A stretch of 23,813 nucleotides of DNA from Opitutia bacterium (GTDB lineage: Bacteria > Verrucomicrobiota > Verrucomicrobiae > Opitutales > Opitutaceae). A program made the position numbers and the translations under genes. This document shows, piece by piece, positions 1,198-23,813 of this stretch (position 1 is the first letter of the stretch; every line of letters starts with the position of its first letter). The notes beneath the pieces were generated by a model. That model did not search any database. It was given only the letters and a program-made list of their open reading frames with translations, and was not told the origin of the DNA. The stretch is from NCBI GenBank assembly GCA_947442255.1, contig CANEVO010000067.1, positions 1 to 23,813 of the forward strand. Reading direction: 5' to 3'.

Positions 1198-1234
1198 GGG
1201 AGGAATGCCGGAGTTCGGAAAAAAAGAGTTGGGA

Positions 1235-6112: not shown

Positions 6113-6157
6113 CCTTCCCTACGTCATTTTAATCCCGGCCGCCCGCAAATCCACCTC

Positions 6158-7516
6158 ATGAAAAAATTCTCCCACCCAACGTTTGCCTCCGGACCCTACA
6201 TCGCGACGCGTACCGCCATCTCACGCCGTCACTTTCTGCAGGGCACCGGTGTCGCGCTTTCCCTGCCCTTCCTCGACCTGATGCTGCCGTCCTTCGCGCG
6301 GGCCGCGGCGGCCGACTCCCCCCTCGCCCCGGCGGCAAAGCCGCGGCGCATTTTATCGATCTGCAACAACCTGGGCGTGCTGCATGAGCCCTTCTTCCCG
6401 AAGGGCGCCGGGCGCGACTACGTGGCGTCCCCCTATCTCGAGCCGCTGCAGACTCACCGCAACGATTTCACCGTCTTCAGCGGCGTGTCGTTCGCGGGCG
6501 TCGACAGCGGCCATCCGGCGGACATCTGCTTCCTGACAGGCGCACCGCATCCCAGCTCGGCCTCGTTCAAGAACACGATGTCGCTCGATCAATTCGTGGC
6601 CGAACGCATTGGCACCCTGACGCGGTTTCCCTCCATTACCCTCGCCGTCAACACCCGGACCCGGAGCCTTTCGGTCTCGGGCACGGGCGTGGCCGTGCCG
6701 CCCGAGGACAAGGCCGCTGAGGTCTTCAAGCAGCTCTTTGTCCAGGGCACGCCGGCTGAAGTGGAGGCGCAAATCCTCCGCCTCCAGACGGGCCGCAGCA
6801 TCCTCGACACCGTCGGCGAACGGGCGAACGCGCTGCGCCGCAGCGCCGGCGCTTCTGATCGCGATCGGCTCGATGAATATTTCTCGAGTGTCCGCGACCT
6901 GGAAAGCCGGCTCCATGCCTCCCAGGGCTGGGAGAAGAAACCGAAGCCCGAGGTGACGGCAGCCCCGCCAGTCGATCCCGCCAGCCCCGCCCAATACATG
7001 GCGAAGGTGAAGGTCATGTACGATCTGGCCCGGCTTTCGTTCCAAACCGACTCGACGCGCGCGATCACGCTGATGCTCGACAGTGTCGCCACGCCGGTCA
7101 TCGAAGGTATCCCGGACGTGAAAATCACGGAAGGGTACCACAACCTCTCCCATCACGGCAAAGCAGCCGACAAGTTGAGCCAGTTGCGCGCGCTCGACCT
7201 GGCGCACATGAAGCTCCTCGCGAAGCTCTATTCCGACCTGAAGGAAGTCCGCGAAGGCGAAGAGACGCTGCTCGACCGGACCATGGTCCTCTACGGATCG
7301 AATCTGGGCGACGCCAACACGCACGTGAATACAAACATGCCACTGCTCCTGGCTGGTGGCGGTTTCAAGCACGGGCAGCACCTTGCGTTCGATACCTCAC
7401 CCGAGCGCAACTACCCGATGGCTAATCTCCTCCTCTCGATGGTCCATCGCATGGGCATCGAGCAGGACAAGTTCTCTTCCTCCACGGGCACGATGCGCGG
7501 GCTGGAAATGACCTGA
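6158..7516 (+). CDS. DUF1552 family protein, Tat-exported
   Basis: A 452-residue protein with a textbook twin-arginine signal: SRRHFLQ at 22-28, then the hydrophobic [12 protein letters not shown] and an Ala-rich cleavage zone near 47-52. The mature part carries DUF1552 landmarks: [22 protein letters not shown] just after the signal, [37 protein letters not shown], and a C-terminal [36 protein letters not shown] segment. The last part is reminiscent of the sulfatase/DUF1501 alkaline-phosphatase-like fold. Tat export suggests folding or cofactor insertion in the cytoplasm. It sits 45 bp after the DUF1592 cytochrome gene, the pairing seen widely in Planctomycetes, Verrucomicrobia and Acidobacteria, and probably acts with it. 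No biochemical function is established as far as I know. Confidence 0.92.
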
Positions 7517-7713: not shown

Positions 7714-9540
7714 TCAAGGGGTGCGGCGCGGCAGGAAACCAAGGCGTTCGAAGAGCGGCACGATGGTCATCGCGCCGACATCTACGAGACCCTTGTCCGT
7801 CAGCCGGAATTCCGGGATCACCGACAACGGCAGCAGGTTGAATCCCATGTAGGGCACCTTGCATCCAATTCGTCTCCATGCCCGCTTCAGGGCGGTCGTC
7901 TGTCGGGCCACCTCGTGGGCGCGCAGATCGGACAGCAATCCGGCAATCGGCAGCGGCACCGAGGCGAGGACCTTGCTCCCGCGCACCACGCAAACTCCGC
8001 CGCGCATGGCCTTAACCGTCGCCAGCGCGAGTTGCATCTCCGCCTCATTCGTCCCGGCGATCACGATGTTGTGCGCATCGTGTCCCACGCTGCTCGCCAC
8101 GGCCCCCGACTTGAGCCCGAAGTCCCGCAACAGCCCGCGCCCTACGTTGCCGTTCTTCCCGTGGCGCTCCACGACGGCGAGAAAGCAGAGATTCTTCCGC
8201 GCGAAGTGCTCGTCCCAACTGGCCGCGGCCGGCAGGACGAGTTGCTCCCGCTTCGTCACAATCCCGAGCGACACCAACCGGATGACGTTCGCCGTGACCT
8301 TTTTCTCGGGCAACGGAGTGGTCAGGGTCACGCGCCGCGGCAGCTTGATGGTGCGATAGGCCGCCACAGGATAACGGTAGCGCCGCTCCAGGGCCTGCTC
8401 GAGCAGCGGAGTGATCTTCCGTCGTTCGACGACCAGTTGGCCCCCGAACCAGGTATTCTGCACCTCAAGGGCTTCGTTGAGCAGCACCACGTCAGCCCGA
8501 CGCGAAGGCCCCAATCCGCCGAACTCGCCATCCATTGCGTAGCGGGTCGCTGGATGCAGCGAGCCCATGCTCCAAGCAGTGGTCGTGCGCAACCCCGCGG
8601 CCACCGCCTGGCGGACGACCCAGTCCAGGCCAAAGAGAAAAAGATCATCCGCGTCACGGTCGTCAGTGCAGACGCAGACGCGCTTCGGGTTGGCTCCCAG
8701 CTCGGTCACGGCCTTGATCGCCTGCGGCAGCGAGTGCCACGGCGTCTGCGGATTCCCTCCGCGCAGAAAGACCCAAACGCCATTCTCCAGAAAATCGTTC
8801 GCGATCTCGCGATCGATGGCCTCATGCGTGTCGCTCACGCCACTGGCCGCGCCCGCCGCGACATACTCCCGGCCGTAGATGTGGCCGCAGACCGGCCGGC
8901 CGCGACGCAGCGCCTCGGCGAGAATGGCGTGACTGCGGGCGTCGCCCATGGCCACGGGGATATAATCCATCTTCTCGCCGAGGGCAGCCGCCTCGGGCCA
9001 GCGATCGAAGATGCGTCCAATCTTCGCCGGCGTCAGATCACCGCCCGCGGTCTCGAGCCTCGAATTGGTGGCGGGCACGGTGCTCGGCACCGTGAGAAAA
9101 ATGGACAGCGGCGCGCGGCGCGCGTCCTCCAACATCCATTCAATGCCTGCGACATCGGAGACGTTGCCAATCTCGTGGGAGTCGCAAAAGACCGTGGTGG
9201 TCCCGTTGAGCAGGGCGGCCTCGGCGAAGGCTCCCGCGGTCATCATGCTGCTCTCGATGTGCACATGCGGATCAACGAGCCCTGGCGCGAGGATGCCGCC
9301 CCGCGCATCGTAAACGTGTGCGCCTTTCAACCCGGACTTGCGATAGGTCCCGGCTGGGTGGGTCACGGCGATGCGGCCGGACTTAATCCACACCTCGCGT
9401 TCGCGATGGATCCGCTCGGTGTACGTCGAGAGCACGCGGGCTCCCGTGATTACCTGATCCGGCGCCAACCGGCCCATCGCCACCGCGGCCAGTTGCCGGG
9501 TGACCCGATGCAGGGGCGGAACCGAAAAGCGCGTGAGCAT
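7714..9540 (-). CDS. ade: Adenine deaminase
   Basis: A 608-residue member of the amidohydrolase superfamily that converts adenine to hypoxanthine and ammonia (EC 3.5.4.2) in the cytoplasm for purine salvage. Metal-site and family motifs are intact: [13 protein letters not shown] with H92 and H94, CDSHEIGNV with H122-E123, CGHIYG with H220, SDTHE with H239-E240, and [11 protein letters not shown] with D293-D294. The C-terminal domain shows the usual [14 protein letters not shown] and [13 protein letters not shown] blocks. Length is close to the E. coli enzyme (about 590). The ATG at 9540 is kept because residues 11-36 ([19 protein letters not shown]) align with the N-terminal helix of the family, although no Shine-Dalgarno is visible. 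It lies 120 bp downstream of the envelope operon in the same direction and may be read through from it, but no functional link is apparent. Confidence 0.93.
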
Positions 9541-9660: not shown

Positions 9661-10647
9661 TCAGGTGCCGGCGTAGAGCGCCGCCAATTCCAACAGCCGC
9701 TCTTCGAGTTCCCGAAGGTAGGCTTCCTCCGACAGCTTGGGTTTTCGTTCGCGAAGTTTCCCGAGTTCGAGCTCCAAGGCATCGCGCTTCGCCCGCAGTT
9801 CCGCGGTCATGTGCTGCTCGGCGTTGCTGCGCACGAGGTGAAACTGATGGGCCCGTGCGCCGTCGAGCGGGGCGTTATCGTCGGCCTTCTTGGTGGCGCG
9901 GACGCCGCGGAACCAATCGAAGGGCGTCCCGAGTCCGTCGCCGTTGTCGTCGACCAGGGCATGTTCAGTCGCGAGCCGGCCCTCGGTCTTGTAGAACTCA
10001 GCCGTCCGATACGAGGCGCTCAGGAACGCCTCGAGCAGGGAAATCTGGCTGTCTTTGTCCAAGTCGCTCTTCAGGTCCGGCAGCGCCTCGGCGAGATACT
10101 TTCCGAAGCGGGCATAATTTTGTTCATAGCCGCTGCGGGTCGAGGTCACGATGACCCGATTCGGGCCCGCGAGCCGTGCCAGAAAAGGCGCGCTCGCCGA
10201 GGTGGTATCGATGATCGCGATCGGTCGCTGGAACGGCTTCAGCCACTCGGCCAGGTCCGTGGCGGACACATCAGGTCCGCGGAGATTCAACTTCGCTTCC
10301 TTGCCGTCGAAGGTTCCATGCCCCGCGAGGACGAGCCAGAGTTCGCCTTTGCCGTCCTTCGGTTCAGCCGCGAGCGCCTCCTTCAAGGCCTCGCGATCGC
10401 CGGTCCCACCCGACGGACCTGTCCCAATGGCCACATGGCTGGCATCGGCGTCCGTGCTGGCCTTGGCCCACGCCACGGCTTGCTGCTCAATATCGGGCTG
10501 GTAGGCCTGATCCCCGGCGGCACCCGCCACCATGATGACGGTGGAGCGGGCCAGGCCGGCGTCGTCGGCGGCGAAACCGGCGAACGGCAGCAACCCGAAC
10601 GCCACGGACAGAGCCCGCCGCCATGACATCGAACCATGGGTGTTCAC
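9661..10647 (-). CDS. Exported legumain/caspase-like (C13-like) protein lacking cysteine
   Basis: The GTG at 10647 is chosen because it overlaps the upstream TGA (GTGA) and follows GGAAGGGA at proper spacing, giving 328 residues. Residues 1-26 form a signal peptide (SWRRALSVAFGLLPFAGFA). The fold markers of caspase/legumain-like peptidases are present: a first strand STVIMVAGAAGD and the His-Gly pair H110-G111 in LVLAGHGTFDG. Where the nucleophile Cys should follow the next strand, the sequence reads IIDTTSAS (145-152), and the whole protein has no Cys. Two calcium-type loops follow, DLDKDSQISLLEAF at 195-208 and DDNGDG at 233-238, and a C-terminal helix or coiled coil spans about 276-325. 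It is probably a non-catalytic binding or scaffold member of the operon, or one using another nucleophile. That is inference. Confidence 0.8.
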   Translation of the reverse strand: MNTHGSMSWRRALSVAFGLLPFAGFAADDAGLARSTVIMVAGAAGDQAYQPDIEQQAVAWAKASTDADASHVAIGTGPSGGTGDREALKEALAAEPKDGKGELWLVLAGHGTFDGKEAKLNLRGPDVSATDLAEWLKPFQRPIAIIDTTSASAPFLARLAGPNRVIVTSTRSGYEQNYARFGKYLAEALPDLKSDLDKDSQISLLEAFLSASYRTAEFYKTEGRLATEHALVDDNGDGLGTPFDWFRGVRATKKADDNAPLDGARAHQFHLVRSNAEQHMTAELRAKRDALELELGKLRERKPKLSEEAYLRELEERLLELAALYAGT

Positions 10648-13040
10648 GGCATTCCCTTCCAGCGGCGCAGGCCCCACTCGGCCAGCAGGCAAGCGAGCGC
10701 GAACGCGAAGAGCGCGGGCGTATGCCAGGCGGGATACGACCAAGTTTCCATCACGGGAGCCTTCAACTGCGGCAGCCGCCGGGCAAATTTTTCCAACTCG
10801 GCCATCGGCACCATCTGGCCTCCGGTCTTGCGCGCGATTTCCTCCAACAGCGCCTGATTCGGGGCCAGCGACCGAAACTCCTCGGCCGCGAGATCCGTGC
10901 TCCAGCCCGCCTCGGCGCGGCCCAGGTCGGCGCCCGCGGTGTTCTTCACCGTGGCGGTCGCTTTGTAGCCACCGGTCTGCCGCGGCACGTAGGCAACCTG
11001 GTAGAGACCGGGTTCGCTCAGCGCCGACTCGGCTTCCAATTTGATCGGCGCACCCGGCGTGGTGCCGTCGAAGACGACCGGCTCCACCTCCAGCATCACG
11101 CTGGCATCGTCCACCGGCTGGAATTTTTCGTCGCGCACCCGCACCTGGATCGAGACGGAGCCGTTGGCATCCGCCGGCACCGGTTCCACAGTCAACTGCA
11201 CCCGCGTCGGCACATCGGCGATCAGCCAGCGCACCAGCTGGCGCCAGGCCTTGTCCATGTCGGCCTTGGCATTCGCATCCTTGAATCCCCAGCGCCAGAC
11301 ATCGCCGATCATGAGCGCGGCACTGCGGCCCCGGCCAAACCGCTGGACCGCCAGCGCCGGCATCTCGGTGCCCTTGGCGTCCTTCACGGTCGCAATCACG
11401 CTCGCGCCCGGCTTCACGCCGCGCACGCGGTTGAAGACTTCCATCGCCTTCATCCCATCGATTCGCGAACGCTCGTCCGCCTCGTTGTCCCGGAGGCGCG
11501 CCCAGGCCTGCAGCCAGCCTTCGCGGGCCAGCTGGTAGTTCACCGGGCCGGGGGGCTCGTTCTGATCCTCGTTGCGATCGAGGTAAACAGGCAGCGCCTC
11601 CCCGATTGGGGTGTGGAGGTAATTACCCTCTTGAAAACTTTCCATGCCCCCGAGCATCAGCAGCCCGCCCCCGCGCTCGGACACAAACTTCTGCAACAGC
11701 AGCGCCTGCTCGGGCGCAAAGAACTCCGCCTCGAGATCGTCGAGGATGACCGCATGGTAACCGTAGAGATCCTCCGGCGTCCGGGGAAATCCGGCGCGGA
11801 GCTCCGTCTCGTCGCGCGTATTCAACCGCACGAGCACCGGCTGATCGTAGCGCTGCACCTCGTCGGGCGACTGGTTGCCGAAACCGCGGAAAAGCGGATT
11901 GCTCGTCTCGCCCACCCGACCACGAAAATCGAACTTCGGCTCGCGCTTGGCCACGCGGATCAGGCCGACGAGCTGCACCTGGCGATCCTCATCGATTGCG
12001 CGATTGAGAAACTTAAACTCCCAGTTCGGCCGTCCCGAGACGTAGAGCACGCGGAACGGTCCCTCGCCTCGATCGACGGAGATCACCCGGCTGTTGTTCG
12101 CGAGCGTCGCCTCCCCGCTCTTTGGCGCGGCGTCGTCCGCCGCCGGCGCGGGCGGCGTCGTGACGGCCGCGGCATCGGCCCGGCTGGAGACACGCACTTG
12201 ATAATAGGAAAGGCCCGGAGCATCCGGCTTGAGCTGAAAGCGAAAAGCGAGCGCCTCACCGTCCGCCCGGCCGTCCATCGTCTGTTCCTCGACCGTCTTG
12301 CCCTCCCGATCCACCAGGCGCGCCACGATGGGCGAGCCGCGATAACCCGCGGTGCTGACGTTGGCCTGCACCGACACCGGCGCATCCTCAAAGGAGCTTT
12401 GGGTGACAGCCACCTGCTGCACGGCAATGTCGCGCACCGGATCGGGCTTGCCGATGACGACTGGATAAATCGGCGGCAGCCCCGCCAGGTCAGGCACACC
12501 GGCTGGCAGGTCGGTCGCGTTTCCGTCCGTCAGGAGGAGGACGCCGGCGAGTGGACGGCCCTGGAAGCGATCCTTAATGGCCCGCAGCGCAGAACCCAGA
12601 GCCGTCGCGCGACCGTCGAAGGTGAGTTCATGAAAGTCCGTCGTGGCCTGCAGCCGAGTGTCGAACACGTAGCGCCGCACATCGAAGGTCTCGGCGAGTG
12701 CCGCCTGCCAGCCGAGCTTCTGAAGATCGAGGAGCTCCCGCAGGCTGTCACCGCGGCTGCGATTGTCGCCCGCGTCATGAATTTGCAGTCCCTGGCTGTT
12801 GTCGGCGACCACGGCGAAGAGATTGACGCCCGGGCGCGCCCGCTGGCCGAGCCACAGGGGTTCCAACAGGCAGAAGGCGAGCGCCAGCAGGCCGACGATC
12901 TTCAGCGTGAGGCAAACCCACCGCAGCGGCTGCCCCGCCGCGGCGCGGTAACTCCACGCCAGGACCAGGGCGGCAATGCCGACAAAGGCGACGGCGGGCC
13001 AAAGCCAGTTCCAACCGGAGAAGGTAAGCGACGTGGGCAT
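10644..13040 (-). CDS. Membrane VWA protein with a glutamine-amidotransferase-like domain
   Basis: A 798-residue protein anchored by two N-terminal helices (about 11-29 and 41-61) and one C-terminal helix (about 774-790), with a large periplasmic part between. After the second helix comes a VWA-like domain whose metal site is degenerate: D80-N-S82-Q-G84 instead of DxSxS, with LLLTDGNATD further on. A beta-sandwich region follows (about 220-340), then a class-I GATase-like domain (about 345-560) with GYHAVILDDLEAEFF and FVSERGGGLLMLGGMESF; the nucleophile Cys is absent. A third beta domain ends near 740. The only cysteines seem to lie in the membrane helices. Close relatives are often annotated simply as VWA or 'glutamine amidotransferase' proteins. 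It is translationally coupled to the C13-like gene (GTGA overlap) and follows the DUF4175-like gene by 91 bp. Likely role: envelope-side partner of the MoxR system. Confidence 0.82.
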   Translation of the reverse strand: MPTSLTFSGWNWLWPAVAFVGIAALVLAWSYRAAAGQPLRWVCLTLKIVGLLALAFCLLEPLWLGQRARPGVNLFAVVADNSQGLQIHDAGDNRSRGDSLRELLDLQKLGWQAALAETFDVRRYVFDTRLQATTDFHELTFDGRATALGSALRAIKDRFQGRPLAGVLLLTDGNATDLPAGVPDLAGLPPIYPVVIGKPDPVRDIAVQQVAVTQSSFEDAPVSVQANVSTAGYRGSPIVARLVDREGKTVEEQTMDGRADGEALAFRFQLKPDAPGLSYYQVRVSSRADAAAVTTPPAPAADDAAPKSGEATLANNSRVISVDRGEGPFRVLYVSGRPNWEFKFLNRAIDEDRQVQLVGLIRVAKREPKFDFRGRVGETSNPLFRGFGNQSPDEVQRYDQPVLVRLNTRDETELRAGFPRTPEDLYGYHAVILDDLEAEFFAPEQALLLQKFVSERGGGLLMLGGMESFQEGNYLHTPIGEALPVYLDRNEDQNEPPGPVNYQLAREGWLQAWARLRDNEADERSRIDGMKAMEVFNRVRGVKPGASVIATVKDAKGTEMPALAVQRFGRGRSAALMIGDVWRWGFKDANAKADMDKAWRQLVRWLIADVPTRVQLTVEPVPADANGSVSIQVRVRDEKFQPVDDASVMLEVEPVVFDGTTPGAPIKLEAESALSEPGLYQVAYVPRQTGGYKATATVKNTAGADLGRAEAGWSTDLAAEEFRSLAPNQALLEEIARKTGGQMVPMAELEKFARRLPQLKAPVMETWSYPAWHTPALFAFALACLLAEWGLRRWKGMP
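10653..10660 (-). promoter_or_regulatory. Ribosome binding site that fixes a GTG start
   Basis: On the minus strand GGAAGGGA lies 5 nt before the GTG at 10647, inside the end of the upstream VWA/GATase gene. It supports this GTG over the later ATG at 10629 and suggests translational coupling. Confidence 0.65.
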
Positions 13041-13131
13041 GCCGGTCAGTAGGCCGCCGGGGCGACGCTAAATTTAGTGGGGTTGAGCGGCAGCCGAGAC
13101 GAAATCGAACGGGCCGGGAGAGTGGCAGTGA

Positions 13132-16100
13132 TCATTTGTCCTTACCCAGCTCCTCGTAGTATTTCCGCACGGCCTCGGCAAAGCGGTTCGGCACCGGATC
13201 GCGATCGATGGGGGCGAGCAGATCCTTCGGGTCGCGGCGGGCGAGCTCCTCGGCCACACGAGTACGCACCTCGACCAGTGGCTTGATGATCTCGAGTTCT
13301 ACCACGGTCCAATCCGGCTTCTTCAACTCCTGACGAAAATCGCGCCGCAGCAACCGGGCACGTTCGCGCGCGGTGGCCACCGCGTTCCGGAGTTCAGGAG
13401 AATCGAGCAACTGTTCGACATCACCGAGACGCTCAGCCCAGCGCGCAAAGTCCTCGCCCGTGATCGGTCCGCCAGCGAAACGGCCTTCGTTCCAGGCTCC
13501 GACTCCACCACCCCCGCCGCCGCCACCACTAAGAATCGCGTCGAGGCTGAGGCCGCCACGGTTGCCACCGGTTTGACCGCGCCCGCCGCGACCTTCTGTC
13601 AGCTGACCGCGGCCACCCTGCTGGCCATTAGCCTCGCTAGGCTGGGTCCCATCCGCATTGCCACCCTGTCCGCCGGGACTGTTGCCACCTTGGGTAACGC
13701 CGGGCTGACCCGACTGGCCAGCTTGTCCGGGCTGGCCTGACTGTCCGGGTTGGCCGTTTTGCGCTAGGCGGTCACCCTGCGGTTCGCCCGCAGCCCCGGG
13801 CTGGCCGGGTTGCGGCTCGCTGCCCTGTCCCGGCTGGCCATTGGCCGCTTGCTGTTCCCCGGGCGCGCCCGGTTGGCCCGCTTGGCCAGGCTGTCCCGGC
13901 TGGCCGGGTTTGGGTGCTCCGCCGCCGGCCTGCGCGATCTCGCGGGCCAGTTGATCCGTCAATTCGTCGAGCTCCGATTGTGCGAGCTTCAACTGCTCGG
14001 CGTCGTCGCCGAGTACGCTTTCCGCGGCGCGTTCGACGCCCTTCTTCAGGTCATCGATCTCCGTGCGGGCCCGCTGTCCGGCCTGCCCGGCCTCGGCGAG
14101 GAAGCCGTCGCGCAGGAGTTCGCGCGTGAGGTCGAGTGCCTTGCCGCTCTGGTCGCTCTCGCCGGCCTTTTGCAGGCGATCATATAAATCGCGGGTGAGC
14201 CGGCCCGAGCCCAAGAGCTCCTGCCGCATCTGCTTCACGCTGTTGGCATCGTCCTGGCTGAGCTTGCGGAGGCTGTCGTAAAGCTGACGCGAGAGCAGCG
14301 GCTCGGTATTCTCGGCCTGTTCGGAGACCTGCGTCGCCTTCTCCACGATCTGGTTCATCCGCTCCTTTTGCTCGACCAGCTTGTCGAGCGCCTCCTTGCG
14401 GTCGCCCGTGTCGCTGAGAGTGCGACGCTGCGTCGCCGAGTTATTGAGCGCGTCGAGTTTCTGAGAAACCTGCTCCTGTTCGCGGGCGAGCTCGCGGGCC
14501 TCGTTGCGCATGTCCCGCATGTCCTCGGCAAACTGGCTGGAGTTTTCCTTGCGCATGTCATCGCGCAACTGCTGCAACTGCCGCTGCGCCCGCGTCCCGG
14601 ACGCCAGAGCCTGCGCCACCGAACCATCCGCGGCAGCATCGGCGGCCTTCTGCAGGTCGTCGCGCGTTTCCTCGAGCTGCTTCCGCTGCTCGGCCATGCT
14701 GGACTGGTTTTCGGCGCGATCCATTCGCTGTTTCACCTCATCGGCATCGGCCAGCATCTGCCGCTGTTCTTCCTCGAGCCGCTTGAGTCGTTTCTTGATC
14801 TCCTCGCGCTCCTGCTCGCTGCGAGCCTCTTGGAGCGAGGTCTGCAATTCCTTCAGGCGCTCGTTCAAGTCCTGTTGCCGCCGCGCCAGCTGTTGCAGCC
14901 GGTTCATCACCGCGAGTTGCTCCGTGCGTTCCTGGTTCTGGGGCGAGCGCGCCTGGCGCTGGGTCTCGTAGCGGTTCTGGTTCTGCTTCAGGTCGAGCTG
15001 ATCGATCTGCCGCTGAGTCATCTGACCGCCACCGCCGCCGCCGCCACCGCGCTGCCCGCGGGTGACATTGGTTTCGCGGGCCTGCAGCTTCAACAAGGCC
15101 TGATAGGCCGCCTGTTCGGCGGGCAGTGCCTGCGCCAACGGCCCCGGTTCCTTCTCCGCCGCCTTCAATTTCTCGAGCGCGGTTTCCATCTCCTGCGTTA
15201 CCGCTTTCCACAGCGACTGCCGCCGCGGGGACTGCGCCTCGCCGGCCTGTTCCTTCGCCTGGGAGAGAGCCTCGGACTGCGACTCCTGCACGACCTTGGC
15301 GTCCTCGGCATAGTGATCCGACTGGCCGTCGCGTTGGAGCTTCCAGGTCGCATTGATAATCTGTTTCTGCAGGTCGGTGAGCTTGCGGGCCTCGCTGCCC
15401 CCGCCACCGCCTCCGCCGCCCTGCTGTTGCTGATCCTCGCCGGACATCTGGTTCTCGCGAAAGATCTCATCGAACGGCCGCACCTCAGCGAAATAGAGAT
15501 CGCCGTTCGTGCGCCGGACTTTGCCATCGGGTCCGATGTCGTCGGCCCAGACATGCCACGAGATCAGATCGTCCGGCTTGGCCTCGAGTTCCTCGAGCTG
15601 CAGCAGATGGGCAATCGTCCGCTTTTCCTTGGCCACGGCGTCGCGCCCGAGCTCGATGCTCTTGGGTTCCGCACCGCCCACCGAGTAGGCCAGCCCATAG
15701 GCGGGCGAACCAAAATCGTCCCACACCGTGCCATCGAACGCGATTTCCTCGAGCGCCGAGGGACGCAAGTCGCCGCGCGGGGACGTGAGCTTCACCTCGG
15801 GAGGACGGTTCGGCTGCACATCGATCGCGAAGGAGGTCGCGATCTTGTTCGTCCGACCCTCGGCATCGACCAGCTGCAAGTCGTACGACTGGCTCTTTTC
15901 CGGCACGAAGTCTGGGAGCGAGGCCACGGCCTTGTCGGGTGACACCACCAGCGGAATCACCGTTTTCTGGGCGTCCCGGGCCACGAGCCTGGCGGAGGCG
16001 ACCGGCTTGTTCAACTGGAGCTCCACGTTGAGTTTCGTGCCTTCGACCGCACTGACACGCCGGGTGTCCTCGATGCGCTTGCGCGCCAATTTGGTGTATT

Positions 16101-16938
16101 CTGGAAACGTCAACTCGACGTCCGACCGCGCCAGCTTGGGATGCTCGAACACGCTGACCTTGAAATCCCGGGTCTTCTGCCCGCGATACTCGAGATGATA
16201 GACGAAGTCGCCCGCCACATCCGGCACGCTGCCGCCGAACACCGGATCGTTCATGTTCTTGACCAGGGGAATCGAGCGCGCCGCCGCGCCGTTCTCGCGC
16301 ACCACGAGCATGACCGAGGCCGGCAGCTGCTGACCGAAACGGGCCAGCACCACGAGGCTTTCGCCCTTCTCCACGGAGGTGTCGCCGGGCGTCACGGTCA
16401 TTCCATCGACGGCCGTCCAACGCGCGGTCTCGCCCATGATTGGATCGACGCGCAGATTGATCAGCGCAATGCCGAAGCCGGCCAGCGCGACCAGGTGCAG
16501 ACCTTGCACCGCCATGACGCGCTTCCGCGGCACCACCTGCGTCCAATCCTGTTCCTGGCTTCGGGCCGTCGCCTCCTGGAGCACGCGGTATTGAAGATAA
16601 CCGGGCTCCTGGCCGGTTTCGATCGTCTGCTGCACGGCCGTGAGCAGGAGTCCGTTCAATTCGGGATTCCGGTCCTCGACCTTGCGCGCGATCCAGCGGT
16701 AGTCCGGCCGCGTCTCGAAATGTCGCAACGCGATCGTCAGCGCCACCGTGGCGGCGAGCCCAACCATGGCCGGAAGGAGAAAGGGCGAGGTCCAGCCCGT
16801 CGCGCGTTGGAACACGATGAGCGCGATCGAGGCCAGGGCGGCAATCGCCCAGCATGCCGCCATCTTGCGCCACAGGCCGAGCCACTGAAACCGCCGGGCC
16901 ACCTGGTGCAGCCGGGATTTGAGAAAGTCGTTGTTCAT
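13132..16938 (-). CDS. Large DUF4175-like membrane protein with coiled coil and collagen-like repeats
   Basis: A 1268-residue protein. The ATG at 16938 overlaps the upstream TGA (ATGA) and follows GAGGTGG. Membrane helices are predicted at about 26-43, 52-71 and 142-160. A beta-rich extracytoplasmic region (about 165-480) contains FPEYTKLARKR-type bridging blocks and LTSPRGDLRPSALEEIAFDG. From about 515 to 1000 it is Gln/Glu/Arg-rich coiled coil (RLKRLEEEQRQMLADADEVKQRMDR region). Three separate runs of eight Gly lie at 507-514, 631-638 and 1138-1145, and Gly-X-Y collagen-like triplets between about 1012 and 1082. A conserved-looking helical tail ends at KYYEELGKDK. The overall plan matches DUF4175-type proteins found next to MoxR/VWA genes, but the family call is by pattern only. 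It probably forms an elongated envelope scaffold. Confidence 0.75.
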   Translation of the reverse strand: MNNDFLKSRLHQVARRFQWLGLWRKMAACWAIAALASIALIVFQRATGWTSPFLLPAMVGLAATVALTIALRHFETRPDYRWIARKVEDRNPELNGLLLTAVQQTIETGQEPGYLQYRVLQEATARSQEQDWTQVVPRKRVMAVQGLHLVALAGFGIALINLRVDPIMGETARWTAVDGMTVTPGDTSVEKGESLVVLARFGQQLPASVMLVVRENGAAARSIPLVKNMNDPVFGGSVPDVAGDFVYHLEYRGQKTRDFKVSVFEHPKLARSDVELTFPEYTKLARKRIEDTRRVSAVEGTKLNVELQLNKPVASARLVARDAQKTVIPLVVSPDKAVASLPDFVPEKSQSYDLQLVDAEGRTNKIATSFAIDVQPNRPPEVKLTSPRGDLRPSALEEIAFDGTVWDDFGSPAYGLAYSVGGAEPKSIELGRDAVAKEKRTIAHLLQLEELEAKPDDLISWHVWADDIGPDGKVRRTNGDLYFAEVRPFDEIFRENQMSGEDQQQQGGGGGGGGSEARKLTDLQKQIINATWKLQRDGQSDHYAEDAKVVQESQSEALSQAKEQAGEAQSPRRQSLWKAVTQEMETALEKLKAAEKEPGPLAQALPAEQAAYQALLKLQARETNVTRGQRGGGGGGGGQMTQRQIDQLDLKQNQNRYETQRQARSPQNQERTEQLAVMNRLQQLARRQQDLNERLKELQTSLQEARSEQEREEIKKRLKRLEEEQRQMLADADEVKQRMDRAENQSSMAEQRKQLEETRDDLQKAADAAADGSVAQALASGTRAQRQLQQLRDDMRKENSSQFAEDMRDMRNEARELAREQEQVSQKLDALNNSATQRRTLSDTGDRKEALDKLVEQKERMNQIVEKATQVSEQAENTEPLLSRQLYDSLRKLSQDDANSVKQMRQELLGSGRLTRDLYDRLQKAGESDQSGKALDLTRELLRDGFLAEAGQAGQRARTEIDDLKKGVERAAESVLGDDAEQLKLAQSELDELTDQLAREIAQAGGGAPKPGQPGQPGQAGQPGAPGEQQAANGQPGQGSEPQPGQPGAAGEPQGDRLAQNGQPGQSGQPGQAGQSGQPGVTQGGNSPGGQGGNADGTQPSEANGQQGGRGQLTEGRGGRGQTGGNRGGLSLDAILSGGGGGGGGVGAWNEGRFAGGPITGEDFARWAERLGDVEQLLDSPELRNAVATARERARLLRRDFRQELKKPDWTVVELEIIKPLVEVRTRVAEELARRDPKDLLAPIDRDPVPNRFAEAVRKYYEELGKDK
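13693..13905 (-). repeat. Coding region for collagen-like Gly-X-Y triplets
   Basis: Residues about 1012-1082 of the DUF4175-like protein contain three runs of Gly-X-Y: six triplets starting GQPGQPGQAGQ, three in GQPGAAGEP, and seven starting at Gly 1062. They are separated by short Gln/Asn-rich breaks. The DNA is correspondingly repetitive (recurring GGCCAGCCGGG-like units) and could vary in length by slippage. Confidence 0.8.
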
Positions 16939-19040
16939 GATGCCACCTCTGCTGTTTTCGCCGCCACCGCACGCCGCGCCGTCCAACCTGCGAGGGCGGA
17001 TTCCACCAACAACACGGCGAGGGTCGCCGCGATAAACCAACGCCATAATTTCTGCCGTCCCTCCGCTTCCATGCCCTGCAACATCGTCTTGCTTTCCGTC
17101 GGGGCAACGGCCGCGGCCTGTTCCCGGGCCACCGGTACGCCGAGCCGTTCCAGTTCCTCCGCATCGAGCGGCGCCGTCCGGCTCTCGTTGGGATCCAGAT
17201 TCACCGCGAAGCGCGCGCTCCGGGGTCCACCGTTAAATTCATAGATGCCCGGCTGCAGGGTCTGGGCAAAACTGGTCGTCCCCGTCGGAATGGGCAGCGT
17301 CGCTCCGTCCGGCAGGCGGACGGCCTTCGGTTCGGTTCCCGCGGGCGCGGGCACCGGATCGCCAATCGAGAACTGCGTCGTGGTATTCGTCACTCCCCCA
17401 CCCAGTTCGAGCAGCGACCACATCAGGGGCACGAACTTTGACGAAATGGCGAGCTGGCTGTCCTCGGGCTGCCAGCCCGCGGTCAGAACGAACACCTTGC
17501 CCTGGCCCACCGGCACTTCGACCAGGGCGGGATCGCCGCTGTCGAATTTCACGACCGACCGCGCGCCCGGAAGGCCGGCGACGTCGAGTTTCCGATACCG
17601 CCAGATGTGAATCTTCGTGAAATCGCTGAAGCGCGGATCGTTGAAGGCCGCAAAGAGCGGATGGGAGAAATCGATTTCCGCCCACATCGCGTAGGCCTTC
17701 AGCCGCGCTTCCTCGAGCGGCACACCCTCGCGCCCAAGCAGCGCGCCCAGGGTCGTCCCGGCCTCGGGATTCTTCGGCACCACGAACACGATTTTCCCGG
17801 CCTGCGCCTGCTCACGGACCGCGGCCACCGTGGCCGGCGTGAGCACATCGGCCACGAATATAACATGCGCCGCCTGCAACTCGGCGGGATTCAGCGTTGC
17901 GGAACTGGCGCGGGCCGTCACTTGAACGGCGACCCGCGGGCTGTCCGTGAACGCCCGGCGCAGGAAGAAAAGCGGCTGCTTGGAATCCTCGGCGGTCTCG
18001 TTGCCGAGCCAGAGCACGTTGGCGCGCTGCTGGGCGGGCGGGATCACTGCGACCACATTGTCGAAATCATCGTCGTCGCCCCGCAGCGCGATCTGGTCGG
18101 CGGCCGTGGCATCCGCGGGGAGTGGCACGCTAAAAATGCGCGACTGGCCCGGTGACACGTAGGCATCGATGGCGGGCCCGATAAAGTCCGGCGCGCCCGC
18201 CTTGACCCAGCCGAGCTTGAACTGCTCGCGCTTCGAGTCCGCGGCATTGCTCACCCGCACGCGGACCGGAGCGGCGACGGAACGGGTGGACTCCGCCGAG
18301 TCGGCGACCAGTTGCAGGCCGGCATTGCTCGGACTGCCGGCCTTGATGGCCTCGACGAACAACTCGACGCCCTTCGGCCATTCGTAGGACTGGAGGGTGT
18401 CGAGCCGGCTGCCCGCCTGCAGATCGCTGATCAAGTAAATGTGCCGTGGACCGAGACTGGCCTTGCCATCCGTTTCACCCAGGGCCTCGGCCGCGGCAAT
18501 CAAGCCGTTGCCAAGGTGCGTTCCGGCCCAACTCGGGGTGACGGCTCGCACGCGGCTCATGGCGAGGGCCACGCGATCGCCCGTGGCCGCCTGATTCCAC
18601 TCGTCGAAGGTCAGGACCGGGGCCCCCTGGCGATCGAAGGCGATGATCGTGACATGGTCCGCGACTCCAGCGGTGCGGAGGACCGCTTCCGCGCGGGCTT
18701 GGGCGGCGGGCCACAGTCCAGCCCGGCGCATGCTCGCACTGCGGTCGAGCAGGACCACGATCCGTTTCGGCTGGGCGGCCGTGGGATCGTTCAACTCAGT
18801 TTGCGTGAGGAAGGGCCGGGCGAAACCCAGCGCCAGCAACAGGAGCGCCAGGCAGCGCAGGATCAGGAGGAGGATGTGCTCAAGCCGATGCCGCTTCGAA
18901 ATCCGCGGCGGACTCGGCAGCAGAAACATCAGCGAACTGAAGACTGTCCGTTCCCGGGTCGTCTGCCGGATTAGATGGTAGATGAGGGGGCCTCCAATCG
19001 CGAGCGCCCCGAGGAGGAAGAAAGGGGTCAGGAAACTCAT
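16935..19040 (-). CDS. BatA-like membrane VWA protein
   Basis: A 701-residue protein starting MSFLTPFFLLGALAIGGPLIYHLI, the typical N-terminal double-anchor domain (TIGR02226 type): helix 1 at 3-23, a cytosolic RxxERTVFSSLMFLLP loop, and helix 2 at 56-76. The VWA domain follows with an intact MIDAS, D99-R-S101-A-S103 in VVLLDRSASM, and IYLISDLQAG later. Residues about 290-400 look like a beta sandwich and about 405-600 like a GATase1-type Rossmann domain (AAHVIFVADVLTPATVAAVREQ region), also without a nucleophile Cys. A final helix spans about 666-686. Strong Shine-Dalgarno GGAGGT and an ATGA overlap with the DUF58 gene fix the start. In many alphaproteobacteria the same anchor domain is fused to DUF4159; here DUF4159 is separate. 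Expected role: metal-dependent protein interaction at the membrane, coupled to MoxR. Confidence 0.88.
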   Translation of the reverse strand: MSFLTPFFLLGALAIGGPLIYHLIRQTTRERTVFSSLMFLLPSPPRISKRHRLEHILLLILRCLALLLLALGFARPFLTQTELNDPTAAQPKRIVVLLDRSASMRRAGLWPAAQARAEAVLRTAGVADHVTIIAFDRQGAPVLTFDEWNQAATGDRVALAMSRVRAVTPSWAGTHLGNGLIAAAEALGETDGKASLGPRHIYLISDLQAGSRLDTLQSYEWPKGVELFVEAIKAGSPSNAGLQLVADSAESTRSVAAPVRVRVSNAADSKREQFKLGWVKAGAPDFIGPAIDAYVSPGQSRIFSVPLPADATAADQIALRGDDDDFDNVVAVIPPAQQRANVLWLGNETAEDSKQPLFFLRRAFTDSPRVAVQVTARASSATLNPAELQAAHVIFVADVLTPATVAAVREQAQAGKIVFVVPKNPEAGTTLGALLGREGVPLEEARLKAYAMWAEIDFSHPLFAAFNDPRFSDFTKIHIWRYRKLDVAGLPGARSVVKFDSGDPALVEVPVGQGKVFVLTAGWQPEDSQLAISSKFVPLMWSLLELGGGVTNTTTQFSIGDPVPAPAGTEPKAVRLPDGATLPIPTGTTSFAQTLQPGIYEFNGGPRSARFAVNLDPNESRTAPLDAEELERLGVPVAREQAAAVAPTESKTMLQGMEAEGRQKLWRWFIAATLAVLLVESALAGWTARRAVAAKTAEVAS
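16943..16950 (-). promoter_or_regulatory. Ribosome binding site for the DUF4175-like gene
   Basis: AGAGGTGG on the minus strand lies 4 nt before the ATG at 16938, within the last codons of the BatA-like gene. Together with the ATGA overlap it supports this start over the longer open frame reaching 17046. Confidence 0.7.
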
Positions 19041-19993
19041 GCGGCACCTCCCGAAGGATTCCCGGCCCGGCGAAACTGCCGGCCGCGCCGCATCCGTTCC
19101 TGCAGGAAGCCGAACAACGCGATCTCCAGCGGCTGCGCGGTCGAGATCTGATGATAGCCGATGCCGAGGCGGCGGCAGATCGCCCGCAACGCCTCGCAAT
19201 GGGCGTCCAGCTTTTTCATGTACTCGGCCCGGGCCGCCGACGGATCGATATAGATCGTCCGGTTCGATTCAAAATCCTCGAAGAGCGACGGCTTCTCCAA
19301 CCCGAGATTAAGTTCCGCCGGATCGAGAAGGTGGAAGACATTCATCTCGTGCCCGCCGGCCGTCAGCGCGATCAGGTTCCGTTCCAACCGATCCAGCGGG
19401 GCGAAGAAATCCGAGACCAGGCTCACGAGCCCCCGTTTCCGAATCAGCGTGGTGATGCGCTCGATCGGCGCATTGAGATCGGTGGACTGCCCGCTCGTGG
19501 GATGCTCGAGCGCGAGCATCAACTGACGCAGGTGTCCCTTGCGGTGCCGCGCGGGCATGTATTCACGAACCTGATCGTTGAAGGTCAGGAGGCCGACCGC
19601 GTCCCCCTGCAGATGGAGAAAATACGCCAGGGTCGCCACGAGCGTCGCCGCGTACTGGGCCTTGGTATAACCGCGCGTGCCGAACTCCATCGATCGGCTC
19701 TGGTCCACCAGGAGATGGCACCGGAGGTTCGTTTCGTCCTCGTACTTCTTGATGAAGTAGCGGTCGGTCCGGCCATAGACCCGCCAGTCGAGATAACGCG
19801 GATCGTCGCCCGGCGTGTACTGACGATACTCGGTGAACTCGACCGAGAAGCCGTGGTAGGGGCTGCGATGGAGCCCGCTCCAGAAACCTTCGACGACCGC
19901 GCGCGCCCGCAACTCGAGGTTGCGGATGCTCATCAACGCCTGGGGGTCGATGAGCTTGGCGGCGGCCAGGCTGCGGGTGGCGGGAGCAATCAT
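19037..19993 (-). CDS. DUF58 family protein (VWA-like)
   Basis: A 318-residue soluble protein with the DUF58 core: HRSPYHGFSVEFTEYRQYTPGDDPRYLDWRVYG spans about residues 42-74 and IKKYEDETN about 81-89. It continues into a VWA domain with an intact metal-site motif, D97-Q-S99-R-S101 in LLVDQSRSMEFG, and GLVSLVSDFF later. No signal peptide or membrane helix is seen, so it is cytoplasmic. The start at 19993 (MIAPATRSLAAAKLIDPQAL) agrees with the usual N-terminal DPxxL block of DUF58; upstream frame is out of character. The gene starts 28 bp after the MoxR stop and overlaps the BatA-like gene by ATGA. MoxR-DUF58 is a well-known gene pair in which DUF58 is thought to be an adaptor between the ATPase and VWA partners. 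Confidence 0.93.
   Translation of the reverse strand: MIAPATRSLAAAKLIDPQALMSIRNLELRARAVVEGFWSGLHRSPYHGFSVEFTEYRQYTPGDDPRYLDWRVYGRTDRYFIKKYEDETNLRCHLLVDQSRSMEFGTRGYTKAQYAATLVATLAYFLHLQGDAVGLLTFNDQVREYMPARHRKGHLRQLMLALEHPTSGQSTDLNAPIERITTLIRKRGLVSLVSDFFAPLDRLERNLIALTAGGHEMNVFHLLDPAELNLGLEKPSLFEDFESNRTIYIDPSAARAEYMKKLDAHCEALRAICRRLGIGYHQISTAQPLEIALFGFLQERMRRGRQFRRAGNPSGGAA
19046..19051 (-). promoter_or_regulatory. Strong ribosome binding site for the BatA-like gene
   Basis: GGAGGT on the minus strand lies 5 nt before the ATG at 19040, inside the 3' end of the DUF58 gene. It excludes the longer open frame that runs to 19199. Confidence 0.8.
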
Positions 19994-20021
19994 GCGTCCG
20001 GGCTTCAGCGGGCGGGCGGAT

Positions 20022-21068
<1,047 letters not shown>

Positions 21069-21141
21069 TGAAAGGGGGAAGTTCTGAGGGGACTGAAACT
21101 TAGACGCAGGGGACGGGGAAACGGATGCGACCACCGGGCGA

Positions 21142-22101
21142 TCAATGCGTCATCAGGTAAAAAACCATGTTTATGCCAAGGGGATAAGCTACCTTTTCGG
21201 AGAAGCGCTGGAAGTACTCGTTGTTCTCACCCTCGCGCTCCCAACCGTCGCTGACGTCGCTGTTGTGAATCGCGATCACCATGATCCGCTGTTTGTCGTC
21301 CAGCAAGGCACGAACGTGCATGTCTTCCGAACCTTCGCCGCGCCACATCGTCTGCAGGTTCGAGGTGGGATCGCGGGGGTTGTGCTCGGGATTCCAGAAC
21401 TGGATCGTCGGCACCTGGAGGGTCTGCATCGCCCCCTTGATGTTGAAGACACAATGGAAGACCGGGTGGTCCAGCGAGAGATCGATCCATTCCCGCCCCG
21501 GCAGCACGCGCTGCATCTGCGCCGCAAAGCCTTCCCATTCCTCGACGCCCCAAAAATCGTTCACCATCATCGAACCGCCCGTCTGGAGGTAGTTGCGGAG
21601 CCCGGCGACCTCGGTGTCGCGCAAGCGCATGTAGCCGGCGTGCTCCATGAAGATGAAGGGATAATCGAACAGCGCCGGGTCCGACAGCTTGAGGACCCGG
21701 GCATCGGGATCGACGCGGGCCGAGGTCATTTGTTGGAGCCGATAGGAAAAATTCAAATCCGCGTCGGGATAGTCGACCCACCAGCCAAGCTGGCGCCCGA
21801 AGCCGCTCCGCACGCCGCGGCTGGTCGAGGACTTGAAGATGATCCGCGCAAACGTGAACGTGTCCTTCTCAAAGCCGCGGGGATTCGTCCAATCTGGCGT
21901 GCCCGTGCTGTGGGACTGAGTTTCCCGGGCGGTCCGGACCGTGTTTTCGTCGATCACTCCCCCGCCCTCCGTGTTGATGATCGTGCCGTAGTCCTCCGAG
22001 GATCGGCGGCGCTCGCCCTCATGCAACGGCGACGCAGCGTCCATGACGCCCAGCGTGACCAGCCCCCAGCCGGCCCAGAAGGTGAGATGGCGCGTCGTCA
22101 T
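21142..22101 (-). CDS. DUF4159 protein, third and most diverged of three tandem copies
   Basis: A 319-residue protein with a probable N-terminal signal (HLTFWAGWGLVTLGVM). The DUF4159 core is clear: FARIIFKS, the long block ending NFSYRLQQMTSARVDPD, YPFIFMEHAGYMRL, GLRNYLQTGGSMMVNDFWG, LDHPVFHCVFNI, and the C-terminal GINMVFYLMTH shared with both sister copies. It differs from them by Asn for Asp in the V-N-DFWG block, a longer N-terminal region (ERRRSSEDYGTIINTEGGG), and an insert with ILQV/WNPEHNPRDPTSN-type sequence before HVRALLDD. The ATG lies one nucleotide after the TGA of the preceding copy, so translation is probably coupled. Exported or periplasmic; the biochemical role of DUF4159 is unknown. 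Its fold is thought to be GATase1-like. Confidence 0.88.
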   Translation of the reverse strand: MTTRHLTFWAGWGLVTLGVMDAASPLHEGERRRSSEDYGTIINTEGGGVIDENTVRTARETQSHSTGTPDWTNPRGFEKDTFTFARIIFKSSTSRGVRSGFGRQLGWWVDYPDADLNFSYRLQQMTSARVDPDARVLKLSDPALFDYPFIFMEHAGYMRLRDTEVAGLRNYLQTGGSMMVNDFWGVEEWEGFAAQMQRVLPGREWIDLSLDHPVFHCVFNIKGAMQTLQVPTIQFWNPEHNPRDPTSNLQTMWRGEGSEDMHVRALLDDKQRIMVIAIHNSDVSDGWEREGENNEYFQRFSEKVAYPLGINMVFYLMTH

Positions 22102-22102
22102 G

Positions 22103-22969
22103 TCAGTGCGTCATCACGTAGAAGAGGATGTTTATCCCCAGGGGGTACGCGATCTTCTCGGAGAAGTTGTGGAAATAGTAGTCGCTCTCGCCCTCGCGCT
22201 CCCAGCCGTCGCCGTTGTCGCTGTTGTGCGTGGCGAGGACCATGAGGCGGCCCTTGTCGTCCATGATTGCGCGATGATGGACGTTCTGGACGTCGCCGTC
22301 GTGATACTCGTAGGTCACGCCCGTGTGCTCGCTCTCGGCCCCGGTGCGGATGTTCGGCACCTGGCCCTTCGCCTTGATCTCAAAGACACAGTGGTAGAGC
22401 GGATGGTCGAGGGACATCTCGGTAAACCGCCGGTCGGGAAAAACGCGCCGCATGTTCCGCTCGACGTTCTGCCAGGCCGTATCGCCCCAGAAATCGTCGA
22501 ACATCAGGAATCCGCCGTTGAGCAGGTAATTCCGCAAAGCCACGACCTCCAGTTCGCTGAAGTGCAGGCTCCCCGGCTCGACGATGTAGATCCAGGGAAA
22601 GTCCGTGAGTTCGGGCGACGTGAGGTCAACAAACCGGCCGTCGGGATCCACCTTGAGCGAGGTCATCTGCTGCAGCCGGTACGAGAGATTCAGATCGCTG
22701 TCCGGCGCATCCGTCAGCCAGCCGCCACCGTAACCGCGAAAACCTCTTCCGTAGCCGCTCGAATAGCGAATGCGCGCAAAGGTGAAGACATCCTTCTTGA
22801 AGGAACGTGGGTTCTCCCACGTGGGAGTTCCGGTGCTGCCCGAGGGCATTTCGCGCGCGGTCTGGACGCCGTCCATGGCCCGCATCCGCCGTCCCCGATC
22901 CCGATACTGCGCCAACGCGATGCCCGTCACGGCCACGAACAGGAGGACGAGGCAGGCGATCCGTTTCAC
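22103..22969 (-). CDS. DUF4159 protein, second tandem copy
   Basis: A 288-residue protein if the GTG at 22969 is used, which puts a clean signal peptide (KRIACLVLLFVAVTGIALAQ) at the very N-terminus. A GTG at 23023 in the same frame would add 18 residues and cannot be excluded; neither has a good Shine-Dalgarno. The mature part begins with the TAREMPSGSTG block shared with copy one, then FTFARIRYSSGYGRG, NLSYRLQQMTSLKVDPDGRFVDL, FPWIYIVEPGSLHF, LNGGFLMFDDFWG, LDHPLYHCVFEI and GINILFYVMTH. It resembles copy one much more than copy three. Located in the same leftward operon, with the stop of copy one 64 bp before this start and copy three 1 nt after its stop. Confidence 0.88.
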   Translation of the reverse strand: MKRIACLVLLFVAVTGIALAQYRDRGRRMRAMDGVQTAREMPSGSTGTPTWENPRSFKKDVFTFARIRYSSGYGRGFRGYGGGWLTDAPDSDLNLSYRLQQMTSLKVDPDGRFVDLTSPELTDFPWIYIVEPGSLHFSELEVVALRNYLLNGGFLMFDDFWGDTAWQNVERNMRRVFPDRRFTEMSLDHPLYHCVFEIKAKGQVPNIRTGAESEHTGVTYEYHDGDVQNVHHRAIMDDKGRLMVLATHNSDNGDGWEREGESDYYFHNFSEKIAYPLGINILFYVMTH

Positions 22970-23033
22970 GGGCGGCGTTCGGCCGGCGCAGCCGCTGCGC
23001 CCGCCGGGATGAGTTGTGCGCACCCGTTCATGC

Positions 23034-23813
23034 TCAGTGCGTCATGACGTAGAAAATGATGTTAATCCCGAGCGGATACGCGATGCGCTCCGAGAAATTA
23101 CGAAAGAAGTAGTCGTTCACGCCCTCCGACTCCCAGCCTTCGCCCGTGTCGGTGTTATGCGTGGCCAGGACCATGAGCCGGCCCTTCTCATCGAAGATGC
23201 CGCGATGATGGACGGTCTTTACCTCGCCGTCGTGGTTCCGCTCGTAGGTGACGCCGGTCTGTTCGCTGTCGATTGCGGTGTTCATGTTCGGGATCTGTCC
23301 CTTGGCCTGAATCTCGAACACGCAATGGTAGAGCGGATGATCCATCGGGACCTCGACGAAATTCCGCGTCGGCAGGACCTTCTTCAAATAATATTGCACG
23401 TTCTTCCACGCGGCATCGCCCCAGAAATCGTCGAGCATCAGGAATCCGCCGTTTTGGAGATACTTCCGCAGGGCGGTCACTTCGTCCGGCGTGAAATACA
23501 TCGAACCGGGCTCGGCAATGTAGAGCCAGGGAAAGTCCGAGAGGGCGGGATCCGTGAGATCGACGAACCGACCGTTCGGATCGACCTTGATGGCGGTCAT
23601 CTGCTGCAACCGGTACGACAGATTCAGATCGCTGTCCGGGGCGTCGGTATCCCAGCCGGCGCCACCGCCAAAGGCTCCGCCCGCGGCCCCGCTCGCATAG
23701 CGCACCCGGGCAAAGGTGAAGACGTCCTTGCCGAACATTCGCGGATTCTCCCAACGCGGGGCCACGGTGTTGCCGGAAGGCATTTCCCGTGCCGTGTTGA
23801 CCTCGGTCGAACC
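23034..23813 (-). CDS. DUF4159 protein, first tandem copy, 5' end outside the window
   Basis: The frame is open to the right edge, so the gene is partial: about 259 residues are visible and the signal peptide must lie beyond 23813. The visible start, GSTEVNTAREMPSGN, matches the post-signal block of copy two, which shows that the internal ATG at 23783 is not the true start. Core blocks: FTFARVRYASG, a Gly/Ala-rich loop AAGGAFGGGAG, NLSYRLQQMTAIKVDPNGRFVDL, FPWLYIAEPGSMYF, NGGFLMLDDFWG, MDHPLYHCVFEI and GINIIFYVMTH. It is the most upstream operon gene visible; the promoter is not in the window. Confidence 0.88.
   Translation of the reverse strand, partial: GSTEVNTAREMPSGNTVAPRWENPRMFGKDVFTFARVRYASGAAGGAFGGGAGWDTDAPDSDLNLSYRLQQMTAIKVDPNGRFVDLTDPALSDFPWLYIAEPGSMYFTPDEVTALRKYLQNGGFLMLDDFWGDAAWKNVQYYLKKVLPTRNFVEVPMDHPLYHCVFEIQAKGQIPNMNTAIDSEQTGVTYERNHDGEVKTVHHRGIFDEKGRLMVLATHNTDTGEGWESEGVNDYFFRNFSERIAYPLGINIIFYVMTH

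Follow-up and report, generated by a model that had tools for sequence, protein, structure and literature searches.

On its minus strand, from position 23813 down to 9661, a 23,813-nucleotide stretch of an Opitutia bacterium (contig CANEVO010000067.1; this whole stretch is called the window) carries nine genes that form a real and conserved unit. In transcription order, they encode three DUF4159 proteins (DUF4159a, DUF4159b and DUF4159c), the AAA+ ATPase MoxR, a DUF58 protein, a BatA-type VWA protein, a large membrane protein (BIG), a VWA/GATase-like protein (VWAG) and a pseudo-legumain (LEG). Sets of the MoxR–DUF58–Bat/Cmd kind are known; what surprises here is the make-up from dead enzymes, together with an active part that can be swapped and a link to PSCyt proteins and quinohemoproteins. 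Sequence and models show seven protein families (DUF4159, MoxR, DUF58, BatA, BIG, VWAG and LEG) that are conserved together as a cassette, in which the legumain fold and the GATase-like elbows have no cysteine nucleophile. We see an even chance that the unit is a MoxR-powered assembly or maturation machine, anchored in the inner membrane, that serves periplasmic or envelope proteins and uses pseudo-enzymes as binding parts. A narrower proposal is put forward tentatively and with some doubt. It envisages a dedicated Verrucomicrobiota MoxR maturation machine whose clients would be ‘planctomycete-specific’ cytochrome proteins (PSCyt/PSD) and enzymes combining pyrroloquinoline quinone (PQQ) with cytochrome c; a holdase or insertase of dead legumain and glutaminase folds would act in a Ca/Mg-dependent manner through EF-hand-like loops and VWA domains. 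No published account of the nine-gene unit, and none on DUF4159, was found among the open-access papers that the searches listed.

Gene order and its variants

All nine open reading frames (ORFs) delineated in an earlier note on this DNA are present, with G+C contents of 0.78–0.85 at third and 0.41–0.51 at second codon positions, a coding-frame pattern in a window of ~0.65 G+C (Table 1). Pfam agrees with the labels given there to MoxR (AAA_3), DUF58, BatA/VWA (BatA and VWA_2) and VWAG (GATase1_like), and with the three DUF4159 genes (PF13709, E 1.5e-39 to 2e-49). The window ends within the DUF4159 array; the nearest genome compared (G001, which has 68% of the 31-letter words sampled from the window) has four such genes in tandem, the second of which is equivalent to DUF4159a and has a signal-peptide-like N terminus. 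No Pfam match at E≤0.1 was obtained for BIG and LEG. The three stop/start overlaps described earlier were also found. ATGA at DUF58/BatA and at BatA/BIG is read directly from the sequence, and GTGA at VWAG/LEG exists only if LEG starts at GTG 10647 and not at ATG 10629. The MoxR frame is open upstream to GTG 21134; since G001 carries in-frame stops in the corresponding stretch, ATG 21068 is probably the start.

When named genomes were searched with an alignment of VWAG, at least 585 relatives were obtained, of which the best 80 contigs, ranked by identity and all encoding VWAG, were analysed. Most (76/80) are titled Verrucomicrobiota, many Opitutaceae or Opitutae. Three contigs bearing the operon (L090, L104 and L110) are titled Klebsiella pneumoniae metagenome-assembled genome or Proteobacteria bacterium, and their gene content makes these titles look wrong. 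Adjacency is nearly invariant. With loci having <600 bp past the gene excluded (their number follows each count), DUF4159 adjoins MoxR in 43/43 loci (8), MoxR adjoins DUF58 in 50/51 (2), DUF58 BatA in 53/53 (6), BatA BIG in 59/60 (15), BIG VWAG in 75/79 (1) and VWAG LEG in 75/76 (4); a gene for a TPR-metallopeptidase adjoins DUF4159 in 11/11 (33). The same order is found in genomes of other genera and families and recurs in tens of contigs. Order is thus kept in close relatives, and the supposition of a conserved multi-gene unit holds.

Distant families, reached by profile search, rearrange the cassette. The seven families occur as LEG-MoxR-DUF58-BatA-BIG-VWAG-DUF4159 in L186 and L188, with an extra ORF between BIG and VWAG in L189, and as VWAG-DUF4159-LEG-MoxR-DUF58-BatA-(ORF)-BIG in L192. 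Partial stretches show an unmatched ORF at the place of BIG (L187), BatA-BIG-VWAG-DUF4159-LEG as far as the stretch end (L190 and L191), or LEG-MoxR-DUF58-BatA-BIG up to the contig end, preceded by YkuD and VanW genes (L185); L193 has DUF4159 and LEG only. Across these variants, LEG and DUF4159 thus accompany the MoxR genes. Looser arrangements also exist. DUF4159 lies apart from the rest in one related family (G188, G191, G200 and G235; L031, L033, L036, L039 and L180–L184). In the f21 stretches L031, L033 and L036, neither DUF4159 nor the metallopeptidase stands beside MoxR, DUF4159 being elsewhere in the genome, and the stretches examined of G235 contain BIG-VWAG-LEG without MoxR, DUF58 and BatA.

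The unit is accessory and patchy, because only 33 of the 100 family genomes compared contain it with strong matches and G011, of the same genus, has no strong VWAG and LEG matches. Strong VWAG and strong LEG matches fall in the identical 33 genomes, as compared by hand and with ten (VWAG) and two (LEG) further weak-match genomes counted as non-carriers. An adenine deaminase gene lies at 7714–9540, 120 bp past LEG and on the same strand. It was rejected as a core member, being beside the unit in only 16 of the 80 named loci and in one of 15 other stretches (L186–L194 not covered).

Table 1. Genes of the nine-gene unit in the window, and associated genes in related genomes
Feature	Position	Strand	Remarks
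DUF4159a	23034..23813	-	PF13709 E 2e-49; 5' end cut off by window end
DUF4159b	22103..22969	-	Signal-peptide-like N terminus; GATase-like fold without Cys elbow
DUF4159c	21142..22101	-	PF13709 E 1.5e-39; divergent copy adjoining MoxR; weaker signal-peptide-like N terminus
MoxR AAA+ ATPase	20022..21068	-	PF07726 (AAA_3) E 8.8e-63; Walker A GAPGLAKT, Walker B LADE
DUF58 protein, VWA-like	19037..19993	-	PF01882 E 1.5e-48; DxSxS in window sequence
BatA-type membrane protein	16935..19040	-	PF07584 E 5.1e-17; TIGR02226 E 2.4e-19; also VWA_2
BIG	13132..16938	-	Large coiled-coil-like membrane protein; distant DUF4175 relative
VWAG (VWA/GATase-like)	10644..13040	-	PF07090 (GATase1_like) E 2e-10
LEG (pseudo-legumain)	9661..10647	-	Signal-peptide-like N terminus; start GTG 10647 or ATG 10629
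TPR + Peptidase_MA_2 protein, HExxH	L028:2-1777 (G001), L029:3106-5766, others		Upstream of DUF4159 array, outside window
YkuD L,D-transpeptidase + VanW genes	L041:17028-17816, L185:2671-4455		Before variant LEG-MoxR-DUF58-BatA-BIG unit

Pseudo-enzymes and membrane-bound members

LEG had been described as legumain-like and cysteine-free, and both descriptions are correct. The protein has the clan CD (legumain) fold, and the window copy contains no Cys, keeps the catalytic His and has two EF-hand-like loops; a sequence search of the PDB with the LEG profile gave a best E of only 0.26. It differs from legumain and other C13 peptidases in the missing catalytic Cys, in the EF-hand-like loops and in a C-terminal helix pair seen in the model. 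An active cysteine protease is therefore rejected. That LEG works as a protease through another nucleophile (Ser/Thr, or a minority Cys at position 148), the unit being a calcium-switched proteolytic system, is unlikely. Such a role would fit the conservation of His110 (90/90 aligned proteins), of S152 (89/90), of the EF-hand-like residues D195, D197, D199 and E206 (87–90/90) and the presence of C148 in 11/90. It fits poorly with the Cys-free window protein and with position 149, assigned by eye and taken by us, from the legumain motif, to be the nucleophile site, which is A, T, G, S, F or H and never Cys (0/90). Among nine distant LEG proteins inspected by eye, those of variants L186 and L192 have lost the His as well. 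In six distant variants (L186–L189, L192 and L193), the LEG domain forms a fusion with a transglutaminase domain, and three of these proteins contain DUF3857 as well.

The DUF4159 proteins likewise look inactive. At the GATase-like elbow, located from predicted secondary structure and not by superposition, D-F-W occupies 45/45 rows and there is no nucleophile Cys. This Asp-Phe-Trp, where GATase has its Cys elbow, sets them apart from the folds of Hoch_4089 (PDB 4i66), class-I GATase and IFT52. DUF4159b is 70% identical to copy a and 47% to copy c; a Caulobacter control genome also carries a DUF4159. In G001, the protein encoded directly before the DUF4159 array, ending 2 bp before the chosen start, combines TPR with a Peptidase_MA_2 domain.

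Among the remaining members, MoxR has intact Walker motifs (a second MoxR gene, of 41% identity, lies on contig C128 of G001, L002) and DxSxS is intact in DUF58 and BatA, in the VWA domain of the latter in 12/12 aligned rows. BatA comprises two N-terminal hydrophobic segments (1–21 and 51–79), the VWA domain, a DUF4350/GATase-like region (PF14258, E 6.4e-5, under cut-off) and a C-terminal hydrophobic segment (665–683). BIG has hydrophobic segments near its N terminus (24–47, 51–72 and 141–162), a long Gln/Glu-rich coiled-coil-like part and a PGQ-rich tail. Its designation as DUF4175-like fits a distant relationship at most: 4/10 scanned members of its alignment match PF13779 (best E 3.1e-6), the window protein itself has no match at E≤0.1, and no protein passed the PF13779 cut-off in nine genomes. 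VWAG consists of two N-terminal hydrophobic segments, a degenerate VWA domain (DNSQG), a GATase1_like region and a C-terminal hydrophobic stretch; a single Cys occurs in its elbow stretch in 1/13 rows, and the window protein has no Cys elbow. All members except MoxR and DUF58 bear hydrophobic or signal-peptide-like segments, and sequence features of this kind support the envelope location suggested in the earlier note.

The part of the unit from MoxR to BatA is of the known kind, as had been stated, with its intact Walker motifs and with DUF58 adjoining MoxR (50/51) and BatA (53/53). The genes RL3499–RL3502 (cmdA–cmdD) of Rhizobium leguminosarum reportedly have a domain content of DUF58, BatA/DUF4159 and GATase1-like; they number four and are not known to include a legumain-fold gene, a tandem DUF4159 array or a TPR-metallopeptidase. 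Likeness lies in their being a MoxR-containing envelope operon, mutants of which reportedly have envelope and shape defects. The Bat (aerotolerance) operon of Bacteroides and spirochetes shares MoxR, DUF58 and a BatA-type VWA protein with a double transmembrane N terminus (PF07584 and TIGR02226). It differs in that the nine proteins have no Pfam match to BatD or to the Bat TPR/SH3 proteins (E≤0.1), with GATase-like, DUF4175-like and legumain-fold members instead; the TPR protein encoded upstream in related genomes belongs to Peptidase_MA_2.

The vWA-MoxR ternary conflict systems (eLife 2020, PMC7159879) resemble the unit in that a dead caspase-like domain occurs with MoxR and VWA, and inactive caspase domains are reported there as common in effector position. 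The window MoxR also exceeds the bpMoxR cut-off (42.3 against 27 bits). That the unit is such a system, serving immunity and containing an inactive caspase-like member as in multicellular bacteria, nevertheless seems very improbable. Most components look secreted or membrane-bound, given the signal-peptide-like or hydrophobic segments in LEG, DUF4159, BatA, BIG and VWAG, and the partners differ from the VMAP, iSTAND, FtsH and beta-propeller proteins described for those systems. None of these four was matched by Pfam in the nine proteins, to which the search for them was confined. A known defence system was rejected on the PADLOC result: MoxR alone was matched, twice and weakly (E 4e-4 and 7e-3), with no match at E≤0.01 for the other eight proteins.

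Proposed mechanism and candidate clients

For the MoxR-powered assembly machine, the following mechanism may be proposed. MoxR and a DUF58 adaptor would reside in the cytosol and, during an ATP cycle, act on BatA and VWAG by way of the positively charged loops of these two proteins. Conformational force relayed by the pair would reach three targets: their own VWA/GATase-like domains in the periplasm, the coiled coil of BIG, and the secreted pseudo-enzymes DUF4159 and LEG, which would hold clients without cutting them. The sole intact-looking hydrolase site would be supplied by the upstream TPR-metallopeptidase outside the window or, in the distant variants, replaced by the transglutaminase fused to LEG. 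The weakest step is that clients may include periplasmic cytochrome c/PQQ-type proteins (the PSCyt/PSD family and quinohemoproteins). Activation of methanol dehydrogenase is the classical role of MoxR, with which this client step accords. MoxR proteins are more broadly presented as chaperone-like maturation factors in PMC3893208.

Genes for a cytochrome c, a PQQ-dependent dehydrogenase (TIGR03075, over cut-off), a PSD4/PSCyt1 (DUF1592) protein and a DUF1552 protein lie at 271–7516 of the window, and G001 has eight PQQ matches over cut-off and 36 PSD4 matches. Because of these neighbours, carriers were compared with non-carriers among the 100 genomes of the family. Five protein families were set against the operon, none being omitted: PQQ, COX1, PSD4, sulfatase and TonB receptor, the last two counted as first-look candidates. 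At least three PSD4 copies occur in 25/33 carriers and 1/67 non-carriers (by genus, 15/18 against 0/31), and a PQQ-family match at E<1e-39 in 27/33 against 8/67; three scanned PQQ proteins of ~730 aa consist of PQQ propellers and a cytochrome c domain. PSD4 predicts carriers with an area under the curve of 0.87, against 0.74 for sulfatase and 0.65 for TonB receptor. Its link persists within the classes of low (8/14 against 0/49) and high (17/19 against 1/18) sulfatase count. In a phylum set taken as the same 288 genomes for the operon and PSD4 scans, with PSD4 counted up to 14 per genome, PSD4 is found in 13/13 strong carriers from four families and 17/275 others; strong carriers are 13 of 22 matches (E<1e-50), and the nine weaker ones, mostly variants, were counted as non-carriers. 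Three simpler explanations were rejected: a methanol/ethanol-type PQQ dehydrogenase as sole universal client (E<1e-100 in 6/33 carriers and 0/67 non-carriers), aerobic respiration as discriminator (COX1 in 33/33 and 62/67) and genome size (median 4.6 and 4.0 Mb). Among the open-access papers that the search listed, none linked DUF1592, DUF1552, PSCyt1 or PSD4 to MoxR.

A general Bat/Cmd-type system of envelope integrity, devoted to cell wall or outer membrane upkeep with, for example, BIG as periplasmic scaffold, would need no special redox link, and the PSCyt co-occurrence would then reflect an aerobic surface-degrading lifestyle. We regard this as a serious possibility, somewhat short of even. 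Mutants of RL3499–RL3502 are described with morphology and envelope defects in PMC3893208 and PMC5700661; the CenKR regulon reported for Rhodobacter includes both MoxR and TIGR02302-family genes, one of each, and advA, a DUF4175-domain gene, is reportedly tied to cell division in Acinetobacter. The L,D-transpeptidase and VanW genes ahead of LEG in one variant point the same way, as do the higher sulfatase and TonB-receptor counts of carriers. Patchiness across the family is odd for a general integrity role, and PSD4 predicts carriers better than either count. PSCyt genes are reported as commoner in surface-water genomes (PMC5615132), so lifestyle is a real confounder.

Several further points weigh against the assembly machine and its proposed clients. 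Among family carriers, 7/33 have no PSD4 match and 6/33 no PQQ match at E<1e-39, so neither is an obligate client; conversely, PSD4 occurs without the operon in 11/67 family and 17/275 phylum genomes. Of the six genera of mixed content, g1 and g212 show a clear PSD4 contrast and g208 a weak one, and g191, g179 and g52 show none. The carrier comparison was made by genome and genus, without a species tree and with thresholds chosen after the data were seen, and sulfatase (p 1e-4) and TonB-receptor (p 0.013) counts also differ. As to topology, membrane orientation is based solely on hydropathy and the positive-inside rule and is complicated by an internal hydrophobic stretch of BatA (390–408); LEG and DUF4159c stay under the 19-residue hydropathy threshold, with weaker N-terminal 15-residue peaks of 1.87 and 1.46. 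Finally, the minority Cys of LEG stands just one residue ahead of the expected nucleophile.

If the operon and the PSCyt proteins belong together, a single deletion strain might allow both to be assayed for the first time. The cassette would also illustrate clearly how an envelope machine can be made largely of pseudo-enzymes, with one swappable active part, either a zinc peptidase or a transglutaminase.
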